29,372 nucleotides of DNA from a virus. Shown piece after piece: positions 9,092-29,372 of this stretch. Numbering within the stretch: the first letter of the stretch is position 1; each line of letters begins with the position of its first letter. Made by a program: the position numbers and the translations under genes. The stretch covers positions 1-29,372 of the IMG/VR virus record IMGVR_UViG_3300044800_000186; one strand, written 5' to 3'. Below the pieces are notes generated by a model. The model worked only from the letters and a program-made list of their open reading frames with translations, made no database searches and had not been told where the DNA came from.

Positions 9092-9775
9092 ATGAAAAAA
9101 CTCATTGTCGCAGTATTGCTTATCACCGTTCTGTTCACCGGAACCGTCCGGGCGCAGACGGTTGATGTGCAGACGCAGTATCAGACGCTCTTGGTTCAGC
9201 TGATTAACCTGCTCATGCAGCAGGTGTCGGCTCTCCAGGCCCAGCTCACAGAGCTGCAAGCGTCGGTTCAAACGTTGAGCACTCCGGTTCAGCCGCCGAG
9301 CACACCTCCGGCTTTGACAACGGGAACGACCGTAGCGCCGGCGCCCACGAATACGGCAACGAGCACGCCCGAGGTTCCCAAGACGGTGACGGTGAAGCAG
9401 ATTGATATAACCCATCTGCAGATCGTGAACGACACCGGCGTCGCGGTACGCATTAAGAACATCGCGGCGAGTTCGACGCTTGCGGATATGAACATTTCCG
9501 GCTCTTCGATATGGTATCCGCGAAGCTTTAAGGGAATGGACGCGACCTACAACATCTTCGACTGTAGCGGTCTGGGGAGCCTTGGAACCTACCCGAGCTA
9601 CGGCAATGCGAACACCGATCCCTGCGTGCGAAGGGACGAGAATCTTCCGAGGAACGAATTGCAGCCCGGCGAAACCATGACCCTCCGATTCTACGACCCG
9701 GTGGACATTACAAATGTTACGGGAACCATCGTCGAGGTCGGGACCGGAAAGGATGTGCAGTTCAGCGGACTGTAA
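9092..9775 (+). CDS. Secreted coiled-coil surface protein, Parcubacteria type
   Basis: This 227-aa protein has a signal peptide at residues 1-21 (K-K, hydrophobic core, cleavage after VRA). A Leu/Gln-rich helix follows (LVQLINLLMQQVSALQAQLT), then a Pro/Thr/Ser linker (65-105) and a beta-rich C-terminal domain (110-227). Two cysteines in that domain could pair (FDCSG and DPCVR). The L-x2-Q-x2-A-L-Q-A-Q-L helix after a signal peptide is common in Parcubacteria secreted proteins. The gene has a hairpin leader and lies in the accessory region, so it may be a host-derived cargo gene that alters the cell surface. It could instead be a virion or adhesion protein. Confidence 0.75.
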   Translation: MKKLIVAVLLITVLFTGTVRAQTVDVQTQYQTLLVQLINLLMQQVSALQAQLTELQASVQTLSTPVQPPSTPPALTTGTTVAPAPTNTATSTPEVPKTVTVKQIDITHLQIVNDTGVAVRIKNIAASSTLADMNISGSSIWYPRSFKGMDATYNIFDCSGLGSLGTYPSYGNANTDPCVRRDENLPRNELQPGETMTLRFYDPVDITNVTGTIVEVGTGKDVQFSGL

Positions 9776-9969: not shown

Positions 9970-10147
9970 CCGAGCCCGCCAGATCGACTTCAAAGTCCGC
10001 CAGGTCCTCGAAAGTCCCGAGGCAATCTACTACCTCACCATGCAGATCATCCGGCCGAAACCAAAGCTCATGCCCCGCTTCGTCTGGAAATTATTCCTCT
10101 TGGTCGTGATGGCGCCGAGCACGAGATATAAAACGCTCACGAAGTAA
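9953..10147 (+). CDS. Small basic protein
   Basis: This 64-aa protein is strongly basic (MSRKFNRARQIDFKVRQVLE) with a short hydrophobic stretch (FVWKLFLLVVMA, 44-55). The start at 9953 is chosen over an in-frame ATG at 9902 to limit overlap. It ends in a TAATG overlap with the HExxH protein. No family is recognised. Confidence 0.5.
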   Translation: MSRKFNRARQIDFKVRQVLESPEAIYYLTMQIIRPKPKLMPRFVWKLFLLVVMAPSTRYKTLTK

Positions 10148-10629
10148 TGAAGAAAAAGAAAACGAAGGACAAAGGTCCGCGCCCGAAGGCGTATAAGAAA
10201 TATATCAGCGGAATCTGCGACGAACTTCGCACGTTCTTCTTTTGCGGGGAATACCGGATGGACATCGTGTACGTCGATGAGATCCCGCTCCGTGGCGGGT
10301 TCAAGGACCAGACCTCAAATAGTTTGGCGGCGGACATCAAAATCGACCCGACATACCTGAACTTCACGATGCGGGTATCCGATTTCGTTCTCAGAAAGTG
10401 GGAAGAAAAAAAGTATCGGGAAATCGCGGAGATGTTAGTGCACGAATTCACGCATCTACTCACGGAGCCACTCTATCTGCTCGCCCTCCGGGGAACATCC
10501 GAGAGCCAGCGTGACGAGCTTGAAGATGTCCGCGAGCGCCAGACCGAGCGCACCAAGAACGTGCTGATGTGCTACCTGCCAGAGAGTTTTTATAAGGCCG
10601 CGAAGATTAAGGGAAAGTTTGAAAAGTGA
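10147..10629 (+). CDS. HExxH metallopeptidase-like protein
   Basis: This 160-aa protein contains MLVHEFTHLL, with HEFTH at 99-103, the zinc-binding motif of gluzincin/SprT-like peptidases. EDVRERQTERTKNVL (126-140) supplies acidic residues that could be the third ligand. There is no signal peptide, and the N-terminus is basic. It lies one overlap away from the terminase small subunit, a position where phages often carry a small HExxH protein. Activity is inferred; prohead maturation or host targeting are both possible. Confidence 0.65.
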   Translation: MKKKKTKDKGPRPKAYKKYISGICDELRTFFFCGEYRMDIVYVDEIPLRGGFKDQTSNSLAADIKIDPTYLNFTMRVSDFVLRKWEEKKYREIAEMLVHEFTHLLTEPLYLLALRGTSESQRDELEDVRERQTERTKNVLMCYLPESFYKAAKIKGKFEK

Positions 10630-18286: not shown

Positions 18287-18299
18287 TCTGCGGGTGAAC

Positions 18300-20708
18300 A
18301 TGACCATCGCCTTCGATAGCGCAACCCAGGGCAACAACGGGCCGGGTTGGAGTTCGACGAGCCTGACCGTTGCCCACACAGCGAGCGGAGTCAACCGCAT
18401 CGTTTTTGTGGGCATCATGGGCTCGGTAACTGACACTTTGACCGGGTGCACCTACGACGGCAATGCGATGACGCTGGTCAACAAGGCGCAGATTTCCGGT
18501 GACCGCTGGGGGTATTTGTTCTACTACCTCGACCCGCCGACCGGCTCGAAGAACGTGATCGTCACGTTCTCGGGCAACACTGCGATCGGCATGACCATCG
18601 CGAGCTACACGGGCGCGATGCAGAAGGCGCCGGAGGCGAGCGCCACGGCCACCGGCTCGGGAACGGCCGTGACGGGTACGGTGACGACCATAGCTGATAA
18701 TGCTTGGATGGTGATGTGGTCGCAGAACAATTCAAATGTGTACACGGCCGGCACGGGCACGACCGACCGCACCACGAGTGAAGGCCGCGATCTATTCGAC
18801 AGCAACGGGGCCATCACGCCGGCGGGTAGCCACTCGCTCTACGCCACCATCAGTGGCGGGGGAACCCCGCAGTGGGCTGCCGTGTCGGCATCGTTCGCGC
18901 CGGCGAACATGAGCATGAGTGTATCGGCAGCCGGCAGCGTAAGCGTGGCGCGGTTGGCGACCCGGTATCAGACGTTCGCGGTAAGCGCGGCGGGTTCGGT
19001 ATCGCTGGCTCTTGGAAAAGTCTACTCGAAGATTCTGTCGGTAACGGCGAGCGGCGCGGCGTCGCTTGCAAAAGTTATGACCTGCGTCCGCTCGCTCGCC
19101 GTAACGGCGGCCTCGTCGGTGAGCATCATCAAGACCTTTTTCAAAACTCTCGTCGTGGGCGGAAGCACCACCGTAGGCCCGAACTCGCCGGGCACAATGG
19201 CAGATGATGCAACAGTCGGAACGGTGGCGTGGGGCAATCCTGACAGTGCGAAGGTGAGTGATGATGTGTATACGAGTGCGGCCATCGGTACGAGTGGCAC
19301 AAGTCATTATCTAAAAGCCACCAATTTTGGTTTTTCTATTCCCACGGGAGCAACAATAAATGGCATTTTAGTTGAGATTGAACGCAAAGCAGGTTCTATA
19401 ACTTATGGTAAAGCAATAAATGATAATATCGTTTCTATTATTAAATCGGATGGTTCTATTGGGACAACAAATAAAAAATTAACTCCAGACTGGGATATAA
19501 CAGAAGCATATTTTTCCTATGGTTCATCATCTGATTTGTGGGGAGAAACTTGGGACAATACAAAAATAAATGATATTGATTTTGGAGTAGCTCTATCTAT
19601 TGTTAGTAATAATATGGGTTCATCAGTGGGTTACGTTGACCACATCCGCATCACGGTTTATTACACGACTAGTGGCGCGGTAGTTTCTCTCGACAAGGTG
19701 CCCGCAAAAATCTTCGCGGTCACGGCATCGGCCTCCGTTTCCCTTTCAAAACTAGCCACCTTTTTCAAAACCTTGACCGTGAGCGCGTCCACAGCCGTGA
19801 GTTTCGCGAGGACTGTTCTTAAAGCCTTGGCGACCACAGCCACGGCAGTCGTATGTCTCGACAAGCTATTGGCGAAAATCCTCTCCGTCACTGCCTCGGC
19901 TTCGGTGAGCATCTCGCGGATGTTCTCTAAGAGCCTGATCGTTGCGGCGAGTGCCACCATCTCGCTCTCGAAGGCTGCGGTTTATATGAAGACCTTCGCC
20001 GTGTCCGCTGTCTCCTCCGTGTCAATGACGTTCGGAAAGGTGTATGCGAAAGTTCTTGCGGTCACCGCTTCCGCCTCGGTGTCCCTAGCCCAACTGCGTA
20101 CCTATCTGAAGACGCTCACAGTGACCGCTACCGCCGCCGTTTCGAGAATATCCACGTTGTATAAAACGCTTTCCGCTTCTGCGACCGCTGTTGTTTCCCT
20201 TGCTTCTACGAAGTTTAAGGCAATGACCCTTCAAGTCGTGGCTACCGCGCAAACTGTTCTGTCGCGCACTGCCAGTTTTTACAGAACGCTCTCCGTGACA
20301 GCGGGGGCTTCCGTTGTTCTGGCCAAGATAGTCACCTTTTATCGCTCAATCCTTGCCAGCGCCTCGGCTTCCGTGATTCTCTCAAAAGCCAGAATCGTCG
20401 TACAGACTTTGACGGCGACGGCGACGGCGGTGGTGTCGCTTGCGAAGGGACAGCTATTTCAAAAAGTGCTTGCGGTGACGGGAACTGCGGTTACGTCGGT
20501 GGCGCGGGTTGCCACGCACGTTCGGACACTCACGGTGACGGTGTTGGCGAAAATGAAGTTGCTCATCAACGGAACGTCGAGTTTCTGGTCTGACCCATTT
20601 CCGAAGAAAGGGGACAGTTGGAGTGATGCGTATCCTGCGACGGCTGATAGCTGGAGCGACAAATATCCCCCAAAGGGCGGCGCGTGGTCAGATAAATACC
20701 CATCATGA
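18300..20708 (+). CDS. Repeat-rich tail fibre / adhesin
   Basis: In this 802-aa protein, residues 1-200 form a beta-sandwich-like N-terminal domain (GCTYDGNAMTLVNKA). From about 203 to 290 and again from about 457 to 755 the chain is a string of some 20 short repeats of 17-21 aa with the pattern K-T-L-x-V-T-A-x-A-S-V-S-L-x-K. Residues about 292-455 are a separate domain (YLKATNFGFSIPTGATINGI) encoded by markedly AT-rich DNA. The C-terminus is an exact 11-aa tandem repeat WSDxYPxxxxx. There is no chaperone or peptidase motif. An in-frame GTG at 18294 is an alternative start. It is probably the receptor-binding fibre. Confidence 0.75.
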   Translation: MTIAFDSATQGNNGPGWSSTSLTVAHTASGVNRIVFVGIMGSVTDTLTGCTYDGNAMTLVNKAQISGDRWGYLFYYLDPPTGSKNVIVTFSGNTAIGMTIASYTGAMQKAPEASATATGSGTAVTGTVTTIADNAWMVMWSQNNSNVYTAGTGTTDRTTSEGRDLFDSNGAITPAGSHSLYATISGGGTPQWAAVSASFAPANMSMSVSAAGSVSVARLATRYQTFAVSAAGSVSLALGKVYSKILSVTASGAASLAKVMTCVRSLAVTAASSVSIIKTFFKTLVVGGSTTVGPNSPGTMADDATVGTVAWGNPDSAKVSDDVYTSAAIGTSGTSHYLKATNFGFSIPTGATINGILVEIERKAGSITYGKAINDNIVSIIKSDGSIGTTNKKLTPDWDITEAYFSYGSSSDLWGETWDNTKINDIDFGVALSIVSNNMGSSVGYVDHIRITVYYTTSGAVVSLDKVPAKIFAVTASASVSLSKLATFFKTLTVSASTAVSFARTVLKALATTATAVVCLDKLLAKILSVTASASVSISRMFSKSLIVAASATISLSKAAVYMKTFAVSAVSSVSMTFGKVYAKVLAVTASASVSLAQLRTYLKTLTVTATAAVSRISTLYKTLSASATAVVSLASTKFKAMTLQVVATAQTVLSRTASFYRTLSVTAGASVVLAKIVTFYRSILASASASVILSKARIVVQTLTATATAVVSLAKGQLFQKVLAVTGTAVTSVARVATHVRTLTVTVLAKMKLLINGTSSFWSDPFPKKGDSWSDAYPATADSWSDKYPPKGGAWSDKYPS
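18906..20560 (+). repeat. Array of ~20 degenerate 17-21-aa beta repeats
   Basis: Protein-level repeats such as KILSVTASASVSISRMFS, KVLAVTASASVSLAQLRTY and TLTATATAVVSLAKGQLFQ. The array is interrupted at about 19170-19670 by an unrelated domain. DNA copies are well diverged, so the array is not freshly amplified. Confidence 0.75.
19290..19640 (+). other. AT-rich inserted domain within the fibre gene
   Basis: The reading frame continues, but the base composition drops sharply (for example TTTTTCTATT, ATAAATGATAATATC and AATAAAAAATT) compared with the GC-rich flanks. Codons shift to A/T endings. This is a mosaic block acquired by recombination, inserted in the repeat array. Confidence 0.75.
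20586..20705 (+). repeat. 33-bp tandem coding repeat (WSDxYP)
   Basis: TGG codons lie at 20586, 20619, 20652 and 20685, exactly 33 bp apart. The units read WSDPFPKKGDS, WSDAYPATADS, WSDKYPPKGGA, WSDKYPS. It forms the extreme C-terminus of the fibre. Confidence 0.85.
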
Positions 20709-22399
20709 CCAAGACCATCCCCTTCGGCAACGTCTACGGCTTCGGCAACAACCGCTCCATCCGGCGGCTGGGCAAGCGTTTCATCATCATCGAGTCCTAC
20801 TACTCCCAGGGCATGCGGAAGTCGATGTTCGGCATAACTCCGGTCTACGTCGTTTCGAAGGTGAAGAGCAGCGACGACATCTCCGGACTGGGAAACATCA
20901 AGTATTTCGCTCAGATGGGCATTTACCTCTATGCCCAGGACGATGTGGGAAAGGTTTACAAGGAAGCGACTGCGGGACAGCTTGACTTCGGAGCCGCGGT
21001 TCACAGTCCCGGCGGAAACGGCTCGGGGATGATAGGGGATCAGAAGGGGAGGCTTTTATACGCCAACGGTGCGACCAACGCCAATCTCGGGATGTACGAC
21101 GGTTCGACCTGGACGGACAGCTGGCAGTCGCTTCAGTCGTGGCAGCATCCCATGGATCTGTACGAGGACTTGGTGGTCATCGGGAACAAGAACAATGTGG
21201 CGGTGCTCTTCACGGACGACAGCTTCAATGCGAGCGCCTTGGGCATGCCTTCAAGCGTGGCCGTGAGCGCGGTCCGCACGGGACAGAAGGGAATCTTAAT
21301 CGGTGCCAATCTGGGCTACGACGGAATCCTGATCCTGTGGGACGGCAATGCCACGCGCTCCTTGGCTCCGTGGATCTGGACGCGGGGCCAGGTGCTTTCG
21401 ATCGAACGCTACCACACAGGCTGGCTGGTCGTAACCCAGAAGGAGATCCTGTTCACGAACGGTTACACGACGACGGTGCTCTTTGAGTTCATCGACAGCC
21501 CGTTCAGCTTCTCGAACTGGGTTGTGAATCCGCAGGGCACGCTGGTCGTGAACGACAAGCTGATCATCCTTCAGCAGGAACAGATAACGCAGCAGACGTC
21601 CGAATTCGGGCGTATGAAGCCAGGCGTTTACATTTTCGACATCGGGATGAAAACGTTCGAATTCGCGCCGGTGCACACCCAAAATACGATTACCGTTATC
21701 CCGCAGGCAATTTTCATGACCAAGTCCTACAGCCAGAGCATCGTGCTGGGCTACACTGACGTCGCACTCAGCAAAAACTACATCAGCACGCTGGGTACGA
21801 GCGGGCCTTCAACCGCACTCTACATTTCCGAATCCGTGGCATCGGGTGCGACGGAAAAAAGCGCCGAGATGGTGGCTTTGAACTTCGGCGTCAGCACCGA
21901 AAAAGCGGATGCCCAGCCGCTTACCTTCACCGTTTCAGCGAAGGTCTACAACTTCAAGCGCCCACTGTGGAGCCGGCAGGTGACAACGGCCTCGACCGGA
22001 AGCAAGAGCACGGTCCGCGTGGACGCGACCGCGGCGAACATGAACCAGGCCAAAGCCGGCGATGAGGTTACGATCCTTCAGGGTTTGAACGCGGGACAAA
22101 TTCGGCACATCACATCTATCGCCAATCCAGGCGCCTCGAACGAAACCTGGACGCTCGACAGCGATCTGCCGAACGTCAGCGAAGTCGGTATCTGGATGAA
22201 CGTGCAGCCGTTCGTTCTCCTGGACAAGAAACAGACGTTCACGAGTCTGGCCGAAATGCGGAAGGTGGTTTTCAACGCCAGCACCTCGGTCACCGGCAAG
22301 GAATTTCTGGTAAAGGTCGTTTTCGAAGATATGTCCGGCGTCCAACCCGAGATGCACGATTCGCTGTTCCAGTATCAGGACCTGGGCATTCAAACCTAA
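20705..22399 (+). CDS. Tail hub / propeller-like structural protein
   Basis: In this 564-aa protein, residues 1-390 are a succession of beta strands with Gly/Asp turns (GNIKYFAQMGIYLYAQDDVG, DLYEDLVVIGNKNNVAVLFT), consistent with a beta-propeller. Residues about 430-490 (STVRVDATAANMNQAKAGDE) are a small beta domain, and the end is a further sheet. It starts four bases before the fibre stop ends. Podovirus tails have a propeller-like hub or needle-plug protein in this place, but a specific homologue cannot be named. Confidence 0.6.
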   Translation: MTKTIPFGNVYGFGNNRSIRRLGKRFIIIESYYSQGMRKSMFGITPVYVVSKVKSSDDISGLGNIKYFAQMGIYLYAQDDVGKVYKEATAGQLDFGAAVHSPGGNGSGMIGDQKGRLLYANGATNANLGMYDGSTWTDSWQSLQSWQHPMDLYEDLVVIGNKNNVAVLFTDDSFNASALGMPSSVAVSAVRTGQKGILIGANLGYDGILILWDGNATRSLAPWIWTRGQVLSIERYHTGWLVVTQKEILFTNGYTTTVLFEFIDSPFSFSNWVVNPQGTLVVNDKLIILQQEQITQQTSEFGRMKPGVYIFDIGMKTFEFAPVHTQNTITVIPQAIFMTKSYSQSIVLGYTDVALSKNYISTLGTSGPSTALYISESVASGATEKSAEMVALNFGVSTEKADAQPLTFTVSAKVYNFKRPLWSRQVTTASTGSKSTVRVDATAANMNQAKAGDEVTILQGLNAGQIRHITSIANPGASNETWTLDSDLPNVSEVGIWMNVQPFVLLDKKQTFTSLAEMRKVVFNASTSVTGKEFLVKVVFEDMSGVQPEMHDSLFQYQDLGIQT

Positions 22400-22624: not shown

Positions 22625-22652
22625 TTGACACCTAAAAGTCAAGGTCTACAAT
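22625..22652 (+). promoter_or_regulatory. Sigma70-like promoter (TTGACA-N16-TACAAT)
   Basis: TTGACA (22625-22630) and TACAAT (22647-22652), 16 bp apart. The expected start near 22659 leaves only about eight bases before the ATG at 22667. It drives the connector and ejection genes. Confidence 0.8.
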
Positions 22653-22666
22653 TAACCTATAACACC

Positions 22667-23413
22667 ATGCTTTTTTCCGAATCAAAACAATCTCTCGCGA
22701 GACTCTTGAACATCAATTACGCGAACATCGCGAATGACGCGCTTTTCTCGGACGCGGATCTGGGCGACTACATTCAGACCGGAGTGAACCGCGCATGGGA
22801 CGCGTACCCGTGGAGCTTCACCGAGGGGGCGAAACGGATGACCGCCGCGGTCGATCCGAGCACCGGACTCTTACCTGTCTATATCATGTATCCCGAAACC
22901 TTCGAGGATGAGAGCGCGAAACGTTTGATCATAACGGGCAAGGGCGAGTTCGAAAAAATATCCTTCGCGGATTACCAGAAATTCTTGGACGACAATCCGC
23001 TCGCCACGGACAAACTTTGGGCCGACTACAACCGCAGGATATTCGTCAATAAGAATGCTTACTCCATCGGCGACGAGGTAAGCATATGGGGCAAGATCCG
23101 CGCGATGACGCTCACGAACGCCAACGACACGCTGCCTTTCTCTCCCGATACCGACAACGAGGAGAACAGCGGCAACAAAGCGATCGTGCGGCTGGCTTAC
23201 GCCGGCGTGTTGAGTTCCGACAAAAAGAAGGAGTACGCCCAAGGCTCGGTGGAGGAAAAGAGCGCGCTCGAAATGCTGGCAGCCCTCTGGGCTCCGATGG
23301 GCCAGCGGAGGGCGGCCGAACAACCTAAGGACCGTCCGTTCTTCAACGTGCCCGATCTGTTTCCGCGAAGAGGCTCGGGGCCGACGAGCCGGAACATAGG
23401 CAACTTCCCATAG
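22667..23413 (+). CDS. Head-tail connector/adaptor-like protein
   Basis: This 248-aa protein begins MLFSESKQSLARLLNINYAN; YIQTGVNRAWDAYPWSFTEG (about 38-57) resembles the helical start of podovirus adaptor (P22 gp4-like) proteins. Middle strands (RLIITGKGEFEKISFADYQK) and a C-terminal arm with KSALEMLAALWAPMGQRR follow. The start is ATG 22667. A TTG at 22625 is in frame but lies in the promoter. There is no Shine-Dalgarno, in keeping with the near-leaderless transcript. Confidence 0.6.
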   Translation: MLFSESKQSLARLLNINYANIANDALFSDADLGDYIQTGVNRAWDAYPWSFTEGAKRMTAAVDPSTGLLPVYIMYPETFEDESAKRLIITGKGEFEKISFADYQKFLDDNPLATDKLWADYNRRIFVNKNAYSIGDEVSIWGKIRAMTLTNANDTLPFSPDTDNEENSGNKAIVRLAYAGVLSSDKKKEYAQGSVEEKSALEMLAALWAPMGQRRAAEQPKDRPFFNVPDLFPRRGSGPTSRNIGNFP

Positions 23414-23417
23414 TTCA

Positions 23418-24416
23418 ATGCCCGTAGATTTAACCTTCCACGCAGGCGTCGAGACGCCTGAGCAGTACAATGCGCGCGTCGCTGCGGGGCGCGGAGATAC
23501 GCCCGAGGAACTTGGTTCGATGAATCAGGCAACGAGCACCGCTTACGGAGCAGCGAAAGCTCCGGTTCCCGCACCGGACACTGCGGCGGCAACCGACACG
23601 AACGGATTGACCTCGGCCGACTACGAAAAAGCCGCCAAGGAACTCGGCTACGACAGCTATGCTGCGTTCACCCAGGACGTGTTCGCGAAGCCTTCCCAGA
23701 GTACGCAGGACTTCTACAACAGTGCCTACAGCACCGCCGGTTTGGATGCTGTGGCGAACGAAATAAATTCCCGGCAGAACGACCTCGCGACCGCAACGAG
23801 CAGCATCAACGAGAATCCGTGGCTCCACGAAGCGTCCCGCGTTGGTCGAGTTCGGAATCTCACTAACCTCGCGAACGCGAATATCAAGAACCTCCAGAGC
23901 GACTACAAGACGAAGCTCACGGCGGTGGAAGATGTGGTTAAGAAACACGCGACCGACCTGACGGAGAACGACAAGCTGAACCAGTTGAAACTGAAGCACC
24001 TCGAAACGCTCGCAAAGGCCAGCGCGTCAGACCGCACAGCCGCGACGAAGGCAGACCAAGCAACGGTGAAGGAAGAGAATGCACCACCCAAGACGCTGAA
24101 GGCCGGGAATACCGTCTACGCCTGGAATCCCGCAAGCAAGCAGTTCGAGCAGCAGTTCACGGCGGCTACGACGCCAAAAACGGCCAAAGAATTCAACTTT
24201 ACTCCGAAGCAGTTGCTCACGCTCCAGACCAGAGGACTGGATTCAGCGAGCGCGAACGGAATCCTCGCTGATATCAAAGCCGGGCACGACCTCGAAAGCA
24301 TCCGGCAGAACATGAAGAGCCAGAAATTGGACCCCGGACTCTTGGACCAGGTGATGTATTACGTCGATCCGCAGCACAACAAGCCCTCGACGGCATCGAC
24401 GGTCGTTACCTATTAA
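23418..24416 (+). CDS. Internal virion / ejection-type protein
   Basis: This 332-aa protein is low in hydrophobicity and rich in Ala/Thr/Asn/Gln. It has an early disordered stretch (about 40-70), a helical centre (NANIKNLQSDYKTKLTAVED, KLNQLKLKHLETLAKASASD) and a C-terminal helical part (PKQLLTLQTRGLDSASANGI). It precedes the 1219-aa protein, as the smaller ejection proteins do in podoviruses. No enzyme motif is visible. Confidence 0.6.
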   Translation: MPVDLTFHAGVETPEQYNARVAAGRGDTPEELGSMNQATSTAYGAAKAPVPAPDTAAATDTNGLTSADYEKAAKELGYDSYAAFTQDVFAKPSQSTQDFYNSAYSTAGLDAVANEINSRQNDLATATSSINENPWLHEASRVGRVRNLTNLANANIKNLQSDYKTKLTAVEDVVKKHATDLTENDKLNQLKLKHLETLAKASASDRTAATKADQATVKEENAPPKTLKAGNTVYAWNPASKQFEQQFTAATTPKTAKEFNFTPKQLLTLQTRGLDSASANGILADIKAGHDLESIRQNMKSQKLDPGLLDQVMYYVDPQHNKPSTASTVVTY

Positions 24417-24422
24417 CGTGGA

Positions 24423-27400
24423 ATGCCCTACATACCGCTCTCAGCAGGTGGAGCACCGACAGGGACCTACACGCCGCTTGTAGCTAAGGGCGTAGCTCCT
24501 ACTCCTGCACCGGCACCCTCGGCCGGATACGTTCCGCTTTCAGGAAAAGCCGCGCCCGTTTCGACGGTAACTCCAACTTCGCCCACCTTCCAAGGCGCCG
24601 GCTATGGAGCTTCCAACATCAAAGATGTCTCCGGCAAGCCGCTACTCACCTACGAAAACGAGCAGGCCAAATCGAGCCAGCTGCTTTCCGACCGAACAGC
24701 GTTGCCCTTCGACTTCACCAAGCCGCAGAAGATAACACCCGAAATGCTCAAGAACGGGCGGATGCCCGAGAGTGTGAGCGCGGCGATTAAAAGTTCCGTG
24801 GGAGGCACGGCCGCGCAGGAACTCGACCACATCATGCCGCTCGAACTCGGCGGCTCGAATCAAAAAAGCAATCTCCATCTCGAAGCGAACGTTCCCGGAA
24901 CGAGGAACACGCCGACCGACCCCCTGGAGAATCAGTTGGCTCGGAAGGCGATGAACGGCGAGATATCCGTCCTCGACGCATGGCGGCAGATGGCAAAGGC
25001 AAAGAATCTGCCATTGAGAGAAGATCAGCAGACGCAACGGACAGGAGGTGCTACAGACATCGCGCCGACGTATGAAACCGGCGCAGGCGGAGATGTGTTG
25101 AAGGCGTATCCGTCCACGATGCAGACATTGGTCGATCTGCAGATAGACCCTCTTTCCTTGAAGGCCGATCCTACGAAGGCGATAAGCTCTGCGTGGGACA
25201 GCATAAAGGGTTCGGTGGCGCAGGAGGCAGAGAACATAAAGAATCTCTTCAGTTCAAAGTCAGTGTCTGAAGCGGTCGGCGGCACTGAGAAGACAATCGC
25301 CGGGGCCGCAGTGGCCGTCCTGTCTCCTCTCACCGCACTGTTTTCAGGGGCGGACAAGATTCCCATCCTCGGAACGGTGTCAAGGTTAATCTCGCTGCCT
25401 TTCCAGCTTCTCGGGGATGCAGGGCCGGATACCGCCAAGGTGATAGTGGACAAGCTCTCGATGATCTCCCAGAAGGCCAAGAATGACATTGTGGATGGAA
25501 CAGGGCAGATGCTCGCCCTCGCCGGACAGTTCGCTCTCGGGAAAATCTCGGCTGATGTTCTTTCCGAAAAGAAGGCCGCACTCGAAGCGAGGTTCGGAGC
25601 CGAGGACGCGAAGACGATAGTTGATAAGGCGCAGCAAATGGCGCAAGCAAAGGCGACCGAGACACCGAAGGTGGAGGTGCGAGCACCGGCGGTGGAGACG
25701 ATGCAAACGGCAAGACCGCTTCCCGAAAGCGTTACGCCAAAAGAAACCTCCGTCACACTCGCTTCCGGCCTCAACCTCGGTCTCGACAAGTTCGTGAAGG
25801 AAGATGTCGGCCCAGCACTTTCACGGGTAAAAGAAGCAGGCACGGCGGTTGTCAACGGGCTTCGTGCCGTGAAGGACGCCATCGTCAATATCATAGAGCC
25901 GGCGAAACCCGTTGAGCGTGCGAATCCCGAGGGTTATGCCGCTGCGATGCGCATGATCCACACGCCCGAGGCGGAGGCACTGTCTTTCGATAACGCCCGC
26001 TCGCGCACATTTGATTCAAATTTCAAGAAGCTCGAAGGATGGTTCGGCAAGTATTCCGAGAAGGAGCTGAAGGATTTCAACCTCACGCGCGGTATGCCAG
26101 AGAGTTCCGAAGCGCAGGCACTTCAGCGCGAGGCCGGGGCGAAATTAAGACCTGAACTTCAAGACCCCGCGCTCAAAACCTCTATCAAGGAGGCATCGGA
26201 TTACGTCTACGACTATGCAAAAAAGAACGGCATTGACCTGAACTATTTCGAGGATTATTTCTATGGCACTTACAAAGACGCCGCAAAAGTGTCGAGGTTC
26301 CTCGATTACTGGCGGAGCACGGAACGGTATACGAAAGAGAAAACCCTGCCAACGATCGCCGACGCGGCGAACTTCGGCCTAGAACTCAAGAACCAGAATC
26401 CTATCGCCAACATCCGGAGCGAAATGATGGCCGTGGCCCAGCGGGTAGGATTAAAACAACTCCGCGACCGGATAGAAACGGGGGATATTTCTTCTCTCGG
26501 AACGCTCACGGAAAAGGCGGGTCCCGACCAACTGCGAAACTGGGCAAAGATCAACGATTCCGTATTCAATGGGATGCTTTTTGAGCCGAAGTTCGCCCGT
26601 CTGGTCAACAATCTTATCTCCACAAACAAGGTAAGCTCGAATCTTTTCCTGCGTGGCATCCGGCAGACCACCTACCTTTCACAACAGGTAAAATTCCTTG
26701 GGAGCATCTTCCACATGCAGAATATGCTCCGGGGTTCTATCGCCTCGGAAATGGGGGGAATCGTAAATCCGAAGGGTTGGGCCGACTTTGTGAAATCCTT
26801 CAAGCCCGTGGATGCCACCAATCCTGTTTACAAGGAGTTCGTGAACCTCGGGGGAGGGCACCGCTACAGCATCGAATCGCAGGCAGAATCGCAACTCACG
26901 ACACTGGTGCATCGCATCGAGACCGGAAACTACCTCGGGGGCATATTGAGGATTCCCGCCACGATTCTTGAATCAAAATACATCCCGCCTTCTCCCGGGT
27001 TTATCCACTGGATGTTCGATGATTTCATCCCGAAGCTGAAGTTCGAGAAGTTTCAACAGGACGTGGCTGCAAGAGAAGCGAAACTCGGCCGGGTGCTCAG
27101 GGACCCAGAAAAACTTCGCATCATCAAAAACAATCAGAACTTCTACGGAGAGATGAACGAGCGCCTCTTCGGACGAAGCGGTACGGTGACGAGCGCCTTG
27201 CGTCTCATATTCCAAGCCCCCGGCTACGGCGAGGGCAATTTTCGCGCACTGGCACGGGCAAGCATAGGCGACAAGAAGTCCGCGCAGTTCGTCGTGAATT
27301 CGCTGATCACGACACTCACGGTGAGTACGCTCGGGACGAAGATTTTGACCGGCAACTGGCCTGCCCTGCCCAAGAATCCCGACGATCTCCGCGACCTCTT

Positions 27401-28082
27401 CAAGATCAAGACGAATCTCAAAGACGGGAACGGGGACGATGTGTATTTCGACATGATGACCTACGACAAGGACTACTGGAGCGTGTATGGGAATATGATC
27501 TCCGGGAAGGCCGGCCAGATTCCAGCCGATCTCAACACGCGCGTTGCTGGCATGACCTCGACGCCATACAAAATTCTCACGGATCTCGGCACGTTGTTCA
27601 AAGGCGAGATGATATACGACTACAAAGGCGACCCCGTGTATCGTCCGACGGATACGCTTCCAGAGAAGATGCAGAAAATGCTCGCGCGCGAACTCCAGAC
27701 GGCCCAGCCGATCTCCGTTTCCACGTTCGGGCAATCGCAACAGAAGGGAGTTGATACCGCGACTTCCCTGATACAATCCATCATCGGTATTCGGCCCGGA
27801 ACGAGCGAGAACGTGAAGGAGAAGAAGCAAATCATCTCCGACCTTATGAGCTTGCGCGATGAGAAGGACAAGCGGCAAATCGAGCTGAACAAACTTGCCG
27901 GGGAGAACGTTGACGAGGCGAAGAAGCAGAGGCAAGAATTCAACCAAAAGCAGCAGGCGAAGCTCAAGGAAATCCTCAAAGGCCAGCAGGTGCAGCAGAT
28001 CCCCACCCATCTCTTCTATATCCAAAACCTCCGCGTCAAACCGCCGAAGCAGGGTACAGACATCAATTCTGTCCTCAAGTGA
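24423..28082 (+). CDS. Large ejection/internal virion protein with HNH nuclease motif
   Basis: This 1219-aa protein has a Pro/Ala-rich N-terminus with three YxPL motifs (YIPLSAGG, YTPLVAKG, YVPLSGKA; residues 3-42). Residues 130-152 carry an HNH motif: ELDHIMPLELGGSNQKSNL, with D135-H136, N145 and N150. Residues about 280-370 have hydrophobic helices that could enter a membrane. Residues about 500-1050 form a mostly helical region like the large polyvalent-protein cores of phages, including RSGTVTSALRLIFQAPGYGE. A charged coiled coil lies near the end (DLMSLRDEKDKRQIELNKLA). It is the largest gene, in the place of an ejection protein or tape measure. Confidence 0.7.
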   Translation: MPYIPLSAGGAPTGTYTPLVAKGVAPTPAPAPSAGYVPLSGKAAPVSTVTPTSPTFQGAGYGASNIKDVSGKPLLTYENEQAKSSQLLSDRTALPFDFTKPQKITPEMLKNGRMPESVSAAIKSSVGGTAAQELDHIMPLELGGSNQKSNLHLEANVPGTRNTPTDPLENQLARKAMNGEISVLDAWRQMAKAKNLPLREDQQTQRTGGATDIAPTYETGAGGDVLKAYPSTMQTLVDLQIDPLSLKADPTKAISSAWDSIKGSVAQEAENIKNLFSSKSVSEAVGGTEKTIAGAAVAVLSPLTALFSGADKIPILGTVSRLISLPFQLLGDAGPDTAKVIVDKLSMISQKAKNDIVDGTGQMLALAGQFALGKISADVLSEKKAALEARFGAEDAKTIVDKAQQMAQAKATETPKVEVRAPAVETMQTARPLPESVTPKETSVTLASGLNLGLDKFVKEDVGPALSRVKEAGTAVVNGLRAVKDAIVNIIEPAKPVERANPEGYAAAMRMIHTPEAEALSFDNARSRTFDSNFKKLEGWFGKYSEKELKDFNLTRGMPESSEAQALQREAGAKLRPELQDPALKTSIKEASDYVYDYAKKNGIDLNYFEDYFYGTYKDAAKVSRFLDYWRSTERYTKEKTLPTIADAANFGLELKNQNPIANIRSEMMAVAQRVGLKQLRDRIETGDISSLGTLTEKAGPDQLRNWAKINDSVFNGMLFEPKFARLVNNLISTNKVSSNLFLRGIRQTTYLSQQVKFLGSIFHMQNMLRGSIASEMGGIVNPKGWADFVKSFKPVDATNPVYKEFVNLGGGHRYSIESQAESQLTTLVHRIETGNYLGGILRIPATILESKYIPPSPGFIHWMFDDFIPKLKFEKFQQDVAAREAKLGRVLRDPEKLRIIKNNQNFYGEMNERLFGRSGTVTSALRLIFQAPGYGEGNFRALARASIGDKKSAQFVVNSLITTLTVSTLGTKILTGNWPALPKNPDDLRDLFKIKTNLKDGNGDDVYFDMMTYDKDYWSVYGNMISGKAGQIPADLNTRVAGMTSTPYKILTDLGTLFKGEMIYDYKGDPVYRPTDTLPEKMQKMLARELQTAQPISVSTFGQSQQKGVDTATSLIQSIIGIRPGTSENVKEKKQIISDLMSLRDEKDKRQIELNKLAGENVDEAKKQRQEFNQKQQAKLKEILKGQQVQQIPTHLFYIQNLRVKPPKQGTDINSVLK

Positions 28083-28139: not shown

Positions 28140-28496
28140 ATGTCAGTTATAAAAAACGCCACGTCGGCAGTAGCGGCAGCGGCAGCGGCGGCATCGGCGG
28201 CAGCGGCAGCGGCGAAAGTGGCGGTGGAAACTGCGGGCAAGATGACCGACCTTTCGACCGGTGTGGCTGTTCTCCAAGAACAAGTGAAAAACATCAAGGA
28301 GAACGAGTTGGTGCACCTTAATCACCAGATTCAGGAACTGGATAGGAAGATAGACGAGGGCAATGCGAAATCTGATAAAAAGACAGATTCCATTGAGGTA
28401 AAGGTTGACAAGTTGTCCGTCAAAATCGCCTATTGGTCGGGGGGAATCGCCGTCGCCCTCGGCCTCCTACAACTCATCATCAGAATGGCGAAATGA
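28140..28496 (+). CDS. XhlA-like holin/lysis-accessory membrane protein
   Basis: In this 118-aa protein, residues 10-27 are almost all alanine. A coiled coil follows (LQEQVKNIKENELVHLNHQI, then QELDRKID), and a single C-terminal transmembrane helix at about 96-115 (YWSGGIAVALGLLQLIIRMA). A coiled coil plus one C-terminal TM is the plan of XhlA-type lysis proteins. It is followed by the peptidase in ATGA overlap, so the two are translated together. A TTG at 28125 is in frame; ATG 28140 is preferred. There is no Shine-Dalgarno. Confidence 0.65.
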   Translation: MSVIKNATSAVAAAAAAASAAAAAAKVAVETAGKMTDLSTGVAVLQEQVKNIKENELVHLNHQIQELDRKIDEGNAKSDKKTDSIEVKVDKLSVKIAYWSGGIAVALGLLQLIIRMAK

Positions 28497-29326
28497 TGGA
28501 CGAAACAAAAGCGATACTCGGGGGCATCGAAAGCCCGGAAGACAAGCGGGACTACGATTTGGGAACCGTCCAAGCACCGGTCTCAATCCCGGCGTCCTTC
28601 TTGCCGGATATTTCCCTCTTGCCAGTTTACAATCAGGACCAGCAACCGGCGTGTGGGGGTCATGCGGGAGCCAAGCTTCAAAACATTCTCCTCGGTCTCG
28701 GAAAGGATTTATCCCCGCGCTTTGTATTCTCCCTCTGCAAAAAGATAGACGCATTACCACCCGAGAAGGGAACCTATGGCCGCGCGATATTCAAAGTGCT
28801 TCAGAAGTACGGCGTCTGCACGAACGATCTCTTCCCGAACGATGTTACGTTGCCGATCGCGGAGTACGCGGACTGGACGAAGATACCGCAGGCCGCATTC
28901 GTGGATGGGCTCTCGCGCCGGATCGGGCCGTATGCGCAGGTGACCGATCTTTCCCTAGATGGCCTGAAGCAGGCGATCTATCAGAACAAAGCGGTACTGG
29001 TTTTGAAAAAGCCGTGGATTCCCTCTTCGTGGGCTACGCAGTCGAACCCCTCGGGGCATTTCTTCGACCTCGACGGCTACGGCAGTACCCTGCGTTTCAC
29101 AAACAGCTTCGGTCCGGACTGGCAGAATCATGGCGAGGGAGAACTTACAGCGGACGACGCGAAAACTATCATCGAGGCGTGGACTGCTTATGAACCGACG
29201 CCGCCGGTTGCGCCGCTTCCACCCGCGACCATAACGCCGGCAACCGTCTCACCGTGGCTCGACGCACTGAAGCAGTGGCTTGCGAACGTGAAAGCGTGGC
29301 TCTTAAACAAAGGTCGCAACCAGTAA
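28493..29326 (+). CDS. Papain-family (C1A-like) cysteine peptidase, candidate lysin
   Basis: This 277-aa protein carries the complete papain-type active site in order. LPVYNQDQQPACGGHAGAKL has the oxyanion Gln and catalytic Cys54. NPSGHFFDLDGYG has His189. LRFTNSFGPDWQNHGEG has Asn204 in the NSxG context. Residues 233-252 form a Pro/Ala/Thr linker, and the end is a Trp-rich amphipathic helix (SPWLDALKQWLANVKAWLLN) that could bind a membrane or envelope. There is no signal peptide or propeptide of usual size, so release would need a holin. It sits between two membrane-protein genes where an endolysin is expected. Confidence 0.85.
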   Translation: MMDETKAILGGIESPEDKRDYDLGTVQAPVSIPASFLPDISLLPVYNQDQQPACGGHAGAKLQNILLGLGKDLSPRFVFSLCKKIDALPPEKGTYGRAIFKVLQKYGVCTNDLFPNDVTLPIAEYADWTKIPQAAFVDGLSRRIGPYAQVTDLSLDGLKQAIYQNKAVLVLKKPWIPSSWATQSNPSGHFFDLDGYGSTLRFTNSFGPDWQNHGEGELTADDAKTIIEAWTAYEPTPPVAPLPPATITPATVSPWLDALKQWLANVKAWLLNKGRNQ

Positions 29327-29333
29327 CACCAAA

Positions 29334-29372
29334 ATGGAGTATGCACTTGGTGTAGTGGTGTCCCTCATCGTT
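29334..29372 (+). CDS. Start of a membrane protein (partial)
   Basis: ATG at 29334 opens MEYALGVVVSLIV, the beginning of a transmembrane helix, and runs off the right edge. It lies seven bases after the peptidase stop. A holin-like protein is plausible. Confidence 0.5.
   Translation, partial: MEYALGVVVSLIV

Follow-up and report, generated by a model that had tools for sequence, protein, structure and literature searches.

A predicted papain-fold peptidase in a conserved slot before a holin-like gene, with M23 peptidases in the same slot of related phages

Results

Genes at the right end of the window

The window analysed here is an entire IMG/VR record (IMGVR_UViG_3300044800_000186, linear, 29372 nt). 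At its right end, following a gene for a long HNH-motif protein, three consecutive open reading frames (ORFs) encode an XhlA-like protein, a peptidase and the beginning of a transmembrane (TM) protein. The record stops 46 nt past the peptidase ORF. The features are as follows.

24423..28082, + strand: long HNH-motif protein, probably of virion/ejection type; precedes the putative lysis slot
28140..28496, + strand: weakly XhlA-like membrane protein, 118 aa; its translation has an Ala-rich start, a coiled coil and a C-terminal TM segment
28496..29326, + strand: predicted papain-fold (C1A-like) peptidase, 276 aa; alternative start at 28493
29232..29323, + strand: C-terminus of the peptidase, a proline linker and a predicted Trp-rich helix, ending in NKGRNQ
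29334..29372, + strand: start of the TM ORF, MEYALGVVVSLIV..., with its ATG at 29334; cut by the record end

The XhlA-like ORF and the peptidase start overlap as ATGATGA. The former can be called XhlA-like only weakly: it matches the PHROG hemolysin family phrog_937 (E=9.8e-4), which we take to be of the XhlA type, Pfam XhlA was not matched at E<=1, and the coiled coil and C-terminal TM segment were read from the sequence. By reading, similar coiled-coil/TM ORFs also lie upstream of the slot in two related loci, L015 (7460-7693) and L036 (4088-4456). The first 13 codons of the last ORF are present in the window, at the position taken by the holin-like ORF of relatives. This arrangement resembles the PBSX-type lysis cassette, which consists of xhlA, the holin gene xhlB and the endolysin gene xlyA, in that an XhlA-like coiled-coil/TM ORF, a TM ORF and an envelope enzyme lie side by side. 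It differs in that the enzyme here is predicted to be papain-fold rather than an amidase, and in the order of the genes (xhlA-like, enzyme, TM ORF). A preliminary description of this DNA had placed the peptidase between an XhlA-like ORF and a TM-starting ORF; we confirmed this placement, and the slot proved to be conserved in relatives (see below).

The same description reported no muralytic gene in the window. Indeed, a Pfam scan of the 38 window ORFs gave 15 families at E<=0.01, none of them muralytic, and among the best 25 of 32 PHROG families matched by window ORFs none is named as lysis. However, since the window is the whole record and ends just after the peptidase gene, this absence says little.

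Within the window, the peptidase could also be imagined as a capsid-maturation or intracellular (host-takeover) protease, since none of the other scanned ORFs could be recognised as a prohead protease. Nevertheless, some 12 kb separate the peptidase gene from that of the capsid, the XhlA-like ORF precedes it and the TM ORF follows it, and we know of no papain-fold prohead protease. We consider such a role extremely unlikely.

Fold and catalytic residues of the peptidase

Counted from the ATG at 28493, the protein has 277 aa and carries Cys54, His189 and Asn204, the residues given in the preliminary description, whose statement that they are intact holds; counted from 28496, it has 276 aa and the residues become Cys53, His188 and Asn203. 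In the latter numbering, used hereafter, the protein has an intact Gln47-Cys53-His188-Asn203 set, which aligns with the papain set by papain numbering, and the oxyanion Gln lies six residues before the Cys. Across 19 aligned sequences (the window protein and 18 relatives), the Cys and the His are each present in 19/19 and the Gln in 18/19, while 16 sequences have Asn as the third catalytic residue and the remaining 3 have Asp.

An AlphaFold2 model built from a 12-row alignment (mean pLDDT 83.6, pTM 0.78) has a papain fold followed by a separate predicted helix at residues 253-275, which supplies the structure prediction that had been proposed as a check. The closest solved structure found by Foldseek is xylellain (3ois; E 4e-14, TM-score 0.68-0.70), with which VIA-align superposes 229 residues at Z 26.5 and rmsd 2.7. 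Cathepsins (cathepsin K) and papain come next. A PDB search with a sequence profile of five viral members gave the same best match (xylellain, E=3e-14), and papain at 2e-6. Xylellain is, however, a bacterial protein (from Xylella fastidiosa) and only about 20% identical to the peptidase. The fold matches further include a clostridial surface-layer-associated protease and, in BFVD, phage proteins named ‘Peptidoglycan binding-like’, ‘N acetylmuramidase’ and ‘Endolysin’, as well as, with weak scores, morphogenesis or tape-measure proteins.

Sequence families capture this group unevenly. The window peptidase did not match Pfam PF00112 at E<=1, and matches the PHROG ‘peptidase’ family phrog_16701 (E=1e-4). 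Homologues from L001, L002, L003, L006, L009, L010, L011 and L022 pass the PF00112 cut-off, among them proteins about 40% identical to the window peptidase, while those of L031 and L033 score below it, and those of L030 and L041 give weak matches to C39-like models instead. As the window copy lacks a Pfam C1 match, annotation pipelines can miss such an enzyme. Because the papain fold is predicted and the catalytic residues are kept across relatives, we consider it very probable that the window protein is active as a papain-type enzyme.

The peptidase has no visible signal peptide, and Pfam gave no cell-wall-binding domain in it. The Trp-rich C-terminus had been described as amphipathic and possibly envelope-binding. 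A helix is indeed predicted there, but its helical moment is not above that of its own shuffles (302/2000 were as high), and we dropped the amphipathic-tail idea for the window protein, although the tails of several relatives do exceed their shuffles. The tails of slot proteins are more hydrophobic than the ends of other ORFs (0.50 vs 0.39). A KGR ending is found in 6/16 slot proteins, including one M23 peptidase (L029, see below), and in 1/239 other ORFs.

A conserved slot followed by a short TM ORF

Relatives were collected from viral contigs by search; in addition, the HNH-motif protein (24423..28082) served as a query for syntenic relatives, and retrieved loci in two Acidobacteriota metagenome-assembled genomes (MAGs) and in one MAG labelled archaeon. 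A scan of genome contigs with the peptidase alignment found no relative, and a phage-collection search with the peptidases of the window and of L014 found no match. In the relatives, the slot lies after the long HNH/ejection-type protein and before a short TM ORF. Homologues of window 20705-22399, 22625-23413, 23418-24416 and 24423-28082 are found in the same order in L001, L002, L005, L020, L041 and L042. A C1A-type peptidase occupies the slot in L001, L002, L004, L005, L014, L020, L030, L031, L033, L035 and L041, and the slot of L036 holds a divergent papain-like ORF, which we recognised by its Cys/His pattern and a proline/tryptophan tail like that of the window protein.

Of the 18 loci with room for it, 14 have a short TM ORF immediately after the slot gene, compared with 8/129 control genes, for which we took the remaining genes of 150 aa or more in these loci (Fisher p ~6e-11, in a test that treats related loci as independent; 10/12 once the slot loci are collapsed to clades). 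These 18 slot loci comprise C1A, C1A-M15 and M23 genes together. The automated TM rule missed L004, L005, L036 and L037; in the first three, TM ORFs are visible by eye. We call these ORFs holin-like by topology and place, and their family support is thin. Only two of them have holin family matches, both weak: that of L001 matches a PHROG holin family (E=1.3e-4) and, below the cut-off, Pfam Phage_holin_10 (E=0.013), and that of L022 matches PF16945 (Phage_r1t_holin), also below the cut-off (E=0.001). When ten TM/neighbour ORFs were searched against PHROGs, none was convincing as a holin.

The gene order bears on whether the peptidase might instead travel in the virion and act at entry, being either injected together with the tail/ejection apparatus or exposed by it. 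Its gene follows that of the long ejection-type protein, and some of its BFVD fold matches, albeit with weak scores, are the morphogenesis or tape-measure proteins mentioned above. Moreover, L020 4413-5645, a virion-type homologue of window 23418-24416, has an N-terminal LysM domain (E=1.8e-11), which is absent from window 23418-24416 in the Pfam scan. Against these points stand the tight coupling to the downstream TM ORF and the XhlA-like ORF that overlaps the peptidase gene upstream in the window. We judge the entry role unlikely.

Another gene also occurs near the slot, in relatives. Window 9092-9775, which lies far from the slot and before the terminase, encodes an exported protein without a Pfam or a strong PHROG match. 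Its homologues in L001, L002, L005, L030 and L042 are found immediately before the slot, on the opposite strand.

M23 peptidases in the slot, and C1 domains joined to muralytic domains

In three loci (L029, L037 and L042) the slot gene encodes a Peptidase_M23 domain (PF01551), in all cases above the cut-off. None of these loci was sought by M23: L029 and L037 were found with the lysozyme-like family described below as query, and L042 with the HNH protein. A TM ORF follows the M23 gene in L029 and L042, and in L037 and L042 the M23 gene comes right behind the ejection-type gene or the small gene next to it. M23 is an unrelated fold, a zinc peptidase family known to cut peptidoglycan, yet these genes share the lysis-region position of the C1A genes and, in L029, the KGR ending. 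Because of the common slot and the shared ending, the comparison suggests that the catalytic domain has been exchanged within a fixed lysis context. The best reading of these sequences is that the slot peptidase is interchangeable with M23. Since M23 enzymes can be virion lysins too, the M23 swap alone leaves the stage of infection unfixed.

Papain-type domains are also found joined or adjacent to muralytic domains. In L006 (6927-8048) and L022 (7992-9122), whose proteins are 71% identical to each other, C1 and Peptidase_M15_3 are combined in one protein. The annotated endolysin of Alicyclobacillus phage MMB025 combines C1, a region resembling Rv2525c-type glycosyl hydrolases and PG_binding_1. 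In Thermoanaerobacterium phage THSA-485A, a GH25 + PG_binding_1 lysozyme gene lies immediately upstream of the C1A gene (AFK87691.1); this parallels the present module, although the peptidase is only about 25% identical to the window protein and the glycosidase is encoded upstream rather than downstream. L003 has a CHAP gene 1.0 kb upstream of its C1A gene, and in MW202426 the annotation places xhlA and an R21-like endolysin some 2 kb downstream of the peptidase. The C1A genes of Streptomyces phage Sycamore and Burkholderia phage FLC9 lie among tRNA genes and among hypothetical genes, respectively, with no lysis context visible.

A probably lysozyme-like partner in most relatives

At 2.7-4.7 kb past the peptidase, L001, L002, L004 and L005 each encode a small protein that has a CES motif and a hydrophobic N-terminal segment. 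The family to which it belongs was found at 12 loci, and the Glu of CES is invariant in 12/12. In a model of the family (pLDDT 85.3), the best Foldseek matches are weak (E from 0.011) and nearly all lysozymes, and the best VIA-align scores are Z 8.1 for Musca lysozyme and 7.9 for RpfB. Pfam gave no match at E<=0.5 for these four members apart from an unrelated DUF (E=0.22), and a PDB sequence search with the family alignment returned only an unrelated hyaluronan synthase (E=0.011). We regard this exported family as probably lysozyme-like, though this is not proven. At 8 of the 12 loci, four of which are contigs already known, tblastn places a C1A-type gene upstream; the others have the divergent papain-like ORF (L036), M23 (L029 and L037) or neither (L038).

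The preliminary description had proposed that a protease acts here instead of a peptidoglycan hydrolase. This is contradicted in most relatives, by the lysozyme-like genes downstream, the fused M15 domains, the adjacent GH25, CHAP or R21-like genes and the M23 enzymes in the slot. Of 21 readable C1A-type relatives, 16 have a recognised muralytic domain, either on the peptidase itself or no more than about 5 kb away (L001-L006, L009, L010, L016, L022, L030, L031, L033, L035, L036 and L041), and we therefore rejected the protease-for-hydrolase idea as a general rule. Five of these (L030, L031, L033, L035 and L036) carry the lysozyme-like gene by construction, as that gene was the query, and without them the count is 11/16. 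The evidence is uneven by locus: the endolysin of L016 is taken as annotated, and the lysozyme-like call in L041 is weak. The 5/21 relatives without a recognised muralytic domain are L014 (a 3D match below the cut-off only), L015 (whose ORFs lay outside the Pfam muralytic scan), L020 (none) and L011 and L018 (whose annotation names no muralytic gene). L017, L019 and the Prevotella Lak and LR756511 records, which have no usable annotation, were left out of the count. By eye, L014 7690-9936 had been considered as an SLT-like domain; Pfam gave no support and it was not used, and PDB searches with L014 7690-8300 and 12648-13046 gave no match.

L020 is the locus that fits the idea of lysis by a protease alone. 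Its peptidase, capsid and portal are 57%, 52% and 54% identical to those of the window, and in its 36.7 kb record we found no muralytic family among the best 25 of 30 Pfam families, and no muralytic enzyme by profile or motif, in 36 ORFs. Together with the 0/38 in the window, this is what would be expected if the peptidase were the sole lytic enzyme of the lineage and no muralytic enzyme existed, as the preliminary description had it in full. On the other hand, the window record ends shortly after the peptidase gene, Pfam could miss a divergent muralytic domain, and L041, whose capsid is closer (65% identical to that of the window), carries a C1A peptidase, a TM ORF and, 1.5 kb after the peptidase, a short exported ORF that is a weak match to the lysozyme-like family (hmmsearch E=0.0022 over 1754 ORFs; hhalign probability 64%). 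We think it very unlikely that the lineage has no muralytic enzyme at all.

Hosts and other features

The nearest host-linked relative, L041, is a prophage-like element in a 156 kb contig from a MAG of the Thermoanaerobaculia (Acidobacteriota), where a tyrosine-type integrase ORF (by reading) is beside tRNA-Asp, with cellular-type genes beyond; a search of 19 kb for the left attachment site did not locate it. L042, from an Acidobacteriaceae MAG, encodes an SLT-type protein (PF18896 and PF01464, both above the cut-off). A Patescibacteria host with an S-layer had been suggested for the window. We found no S-layer evidence and no sign of Patescibacteria, and rejected this host as unsupported, as the relatives with host context are in Acidobacteriota MAGs.

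Several other features of the window and its relatives were noted. Small HExxH proteins, possibly zinc metallopeptidases, are encoded just before the terminase genes at window 10147-10629 (HEFTH, without a convincing Pfam match) and at L023 8558-8875 (- strand; HEVLH). Genes for TraD/VirD4-like coupling ATPases lie in or beside phage-like elements at L023 17324-18691 (- strand) and L044 1709-3130 (by reading), and the L020 record has a match to TrwB_AAD_bind (E=3e-7), of the same type. The product of window 18294-20708 is a tail-type protein of 804 aa in which a VSLSK...TLTVTASA-like unit is repeated many times, and the DNA there contains 41-nt repeats, with two further copies 63-71% identical. 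Near the left end, 61-nt direct repeats (979-1039 and 1258-1318) are 77% identical.

Discussion

We lean towards the interpretation that the window peptidase is one of two enzymes in a lysis module, namely the cytoplasmic endopeptidase that a holin releases. The papain-fold endopeptidase would build up in the cytoplasm until the inner membrane is opened by the product of the holin-like gene that comes next; once released, the enzyme would cut peptide bonds in the cell envelope. Its most likely target would be the peptide part of peptidoglycan (murein cross-links), because sister phages have M23 endopeptidases in this slot and because C1 is found fused to M15 and to glycosidase/PG-binding domains. 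In most relatives, the glycan strands would be cut by the separately exported lysozyme-like enzyme. The predicted fold, the retained catalytic residues, the slot before a TM ORF, the M23 replacement and the fusion or adjacency to muralytic domains are what the sequences and models provide; from these we infer the lysis timing, the release through a holin and the substrate.

The strongest rival accepts the lysis stage and differs in the substrate. Here, a holin-released protease would digest envelope proteins, such as tethers between outer membrane and peptidoglycan or an S-layer, and murein would be cut by another enzyme. This retains the protease of the preliminary description but drops the claim that it replaces a hydrolase. 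C1A enzymes are proteases of L-amino-acid peptides, and to our knowledge none cuts murein; the fold is that of general proteases, and the clostridial surface-layer-associated protease is among its matches. Furthermore, many relatives have a separate lysozyme-like gene, annotated relatives infect Thermoanaerobacterium and Alicyclobacillus, which are genera with S-layers, and host-linked relatives are in Acidobacteriota, which are diderm and where tethers would matter. However, M23 in the same slot and the fusions to M15 and to glycosidase/PG-binding domains point to murein, and we found neither S-layer nor host evidence for the window itself. We regard an envelope-protein substrate as possible but doubtful.

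For the lineage of the window and L020, we also considered that the C1A enzyme might act as sole dedicated lytic enzyme, which its own holin would release and which would cut either murein cross-links or envelope tethers. This seems improbable to us; if true, we would know of no earlier free-standing C1A endolysin.

Phage lysis enzymes are usually murein glycosidases, amidases, or peptidases of the M23, M15, CHAP or NlpC/P60 types. In our literature search, no paper dealt with free-standing C1A lysis genes. The nearest case is the N5 domain of mycobacteriophage LysinA, likewise a papain-superfamily peptidase domain in a lysis enzyme; a survey of mycobacteriophage endolysins calls this papain-family domain the first in phage endolysins, and places it, C39-like by HHPred, in a multidomain endolysin (PMC3314691). 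The window, by comparison, has a free-standing C1A-like gene, and the glycosidase would be encoded elsewhere. In a classification of papain-like enzymes, CHAP and NlpC/P60 are listed as wall enzymes (PMC10318531). For a 2025 survey of viral lytic proteins, a term search of the main text found no mention of papain, cysteine or C39 (PMC12596118).

If a papain-family protease and M23 do substitute for each other in one conserved slot, the known set of lysis enzymes would grow. Such a swap also raises the question of whether the C1A fold can cut murein, or whether lysis of these hosts needs an envelope protease.
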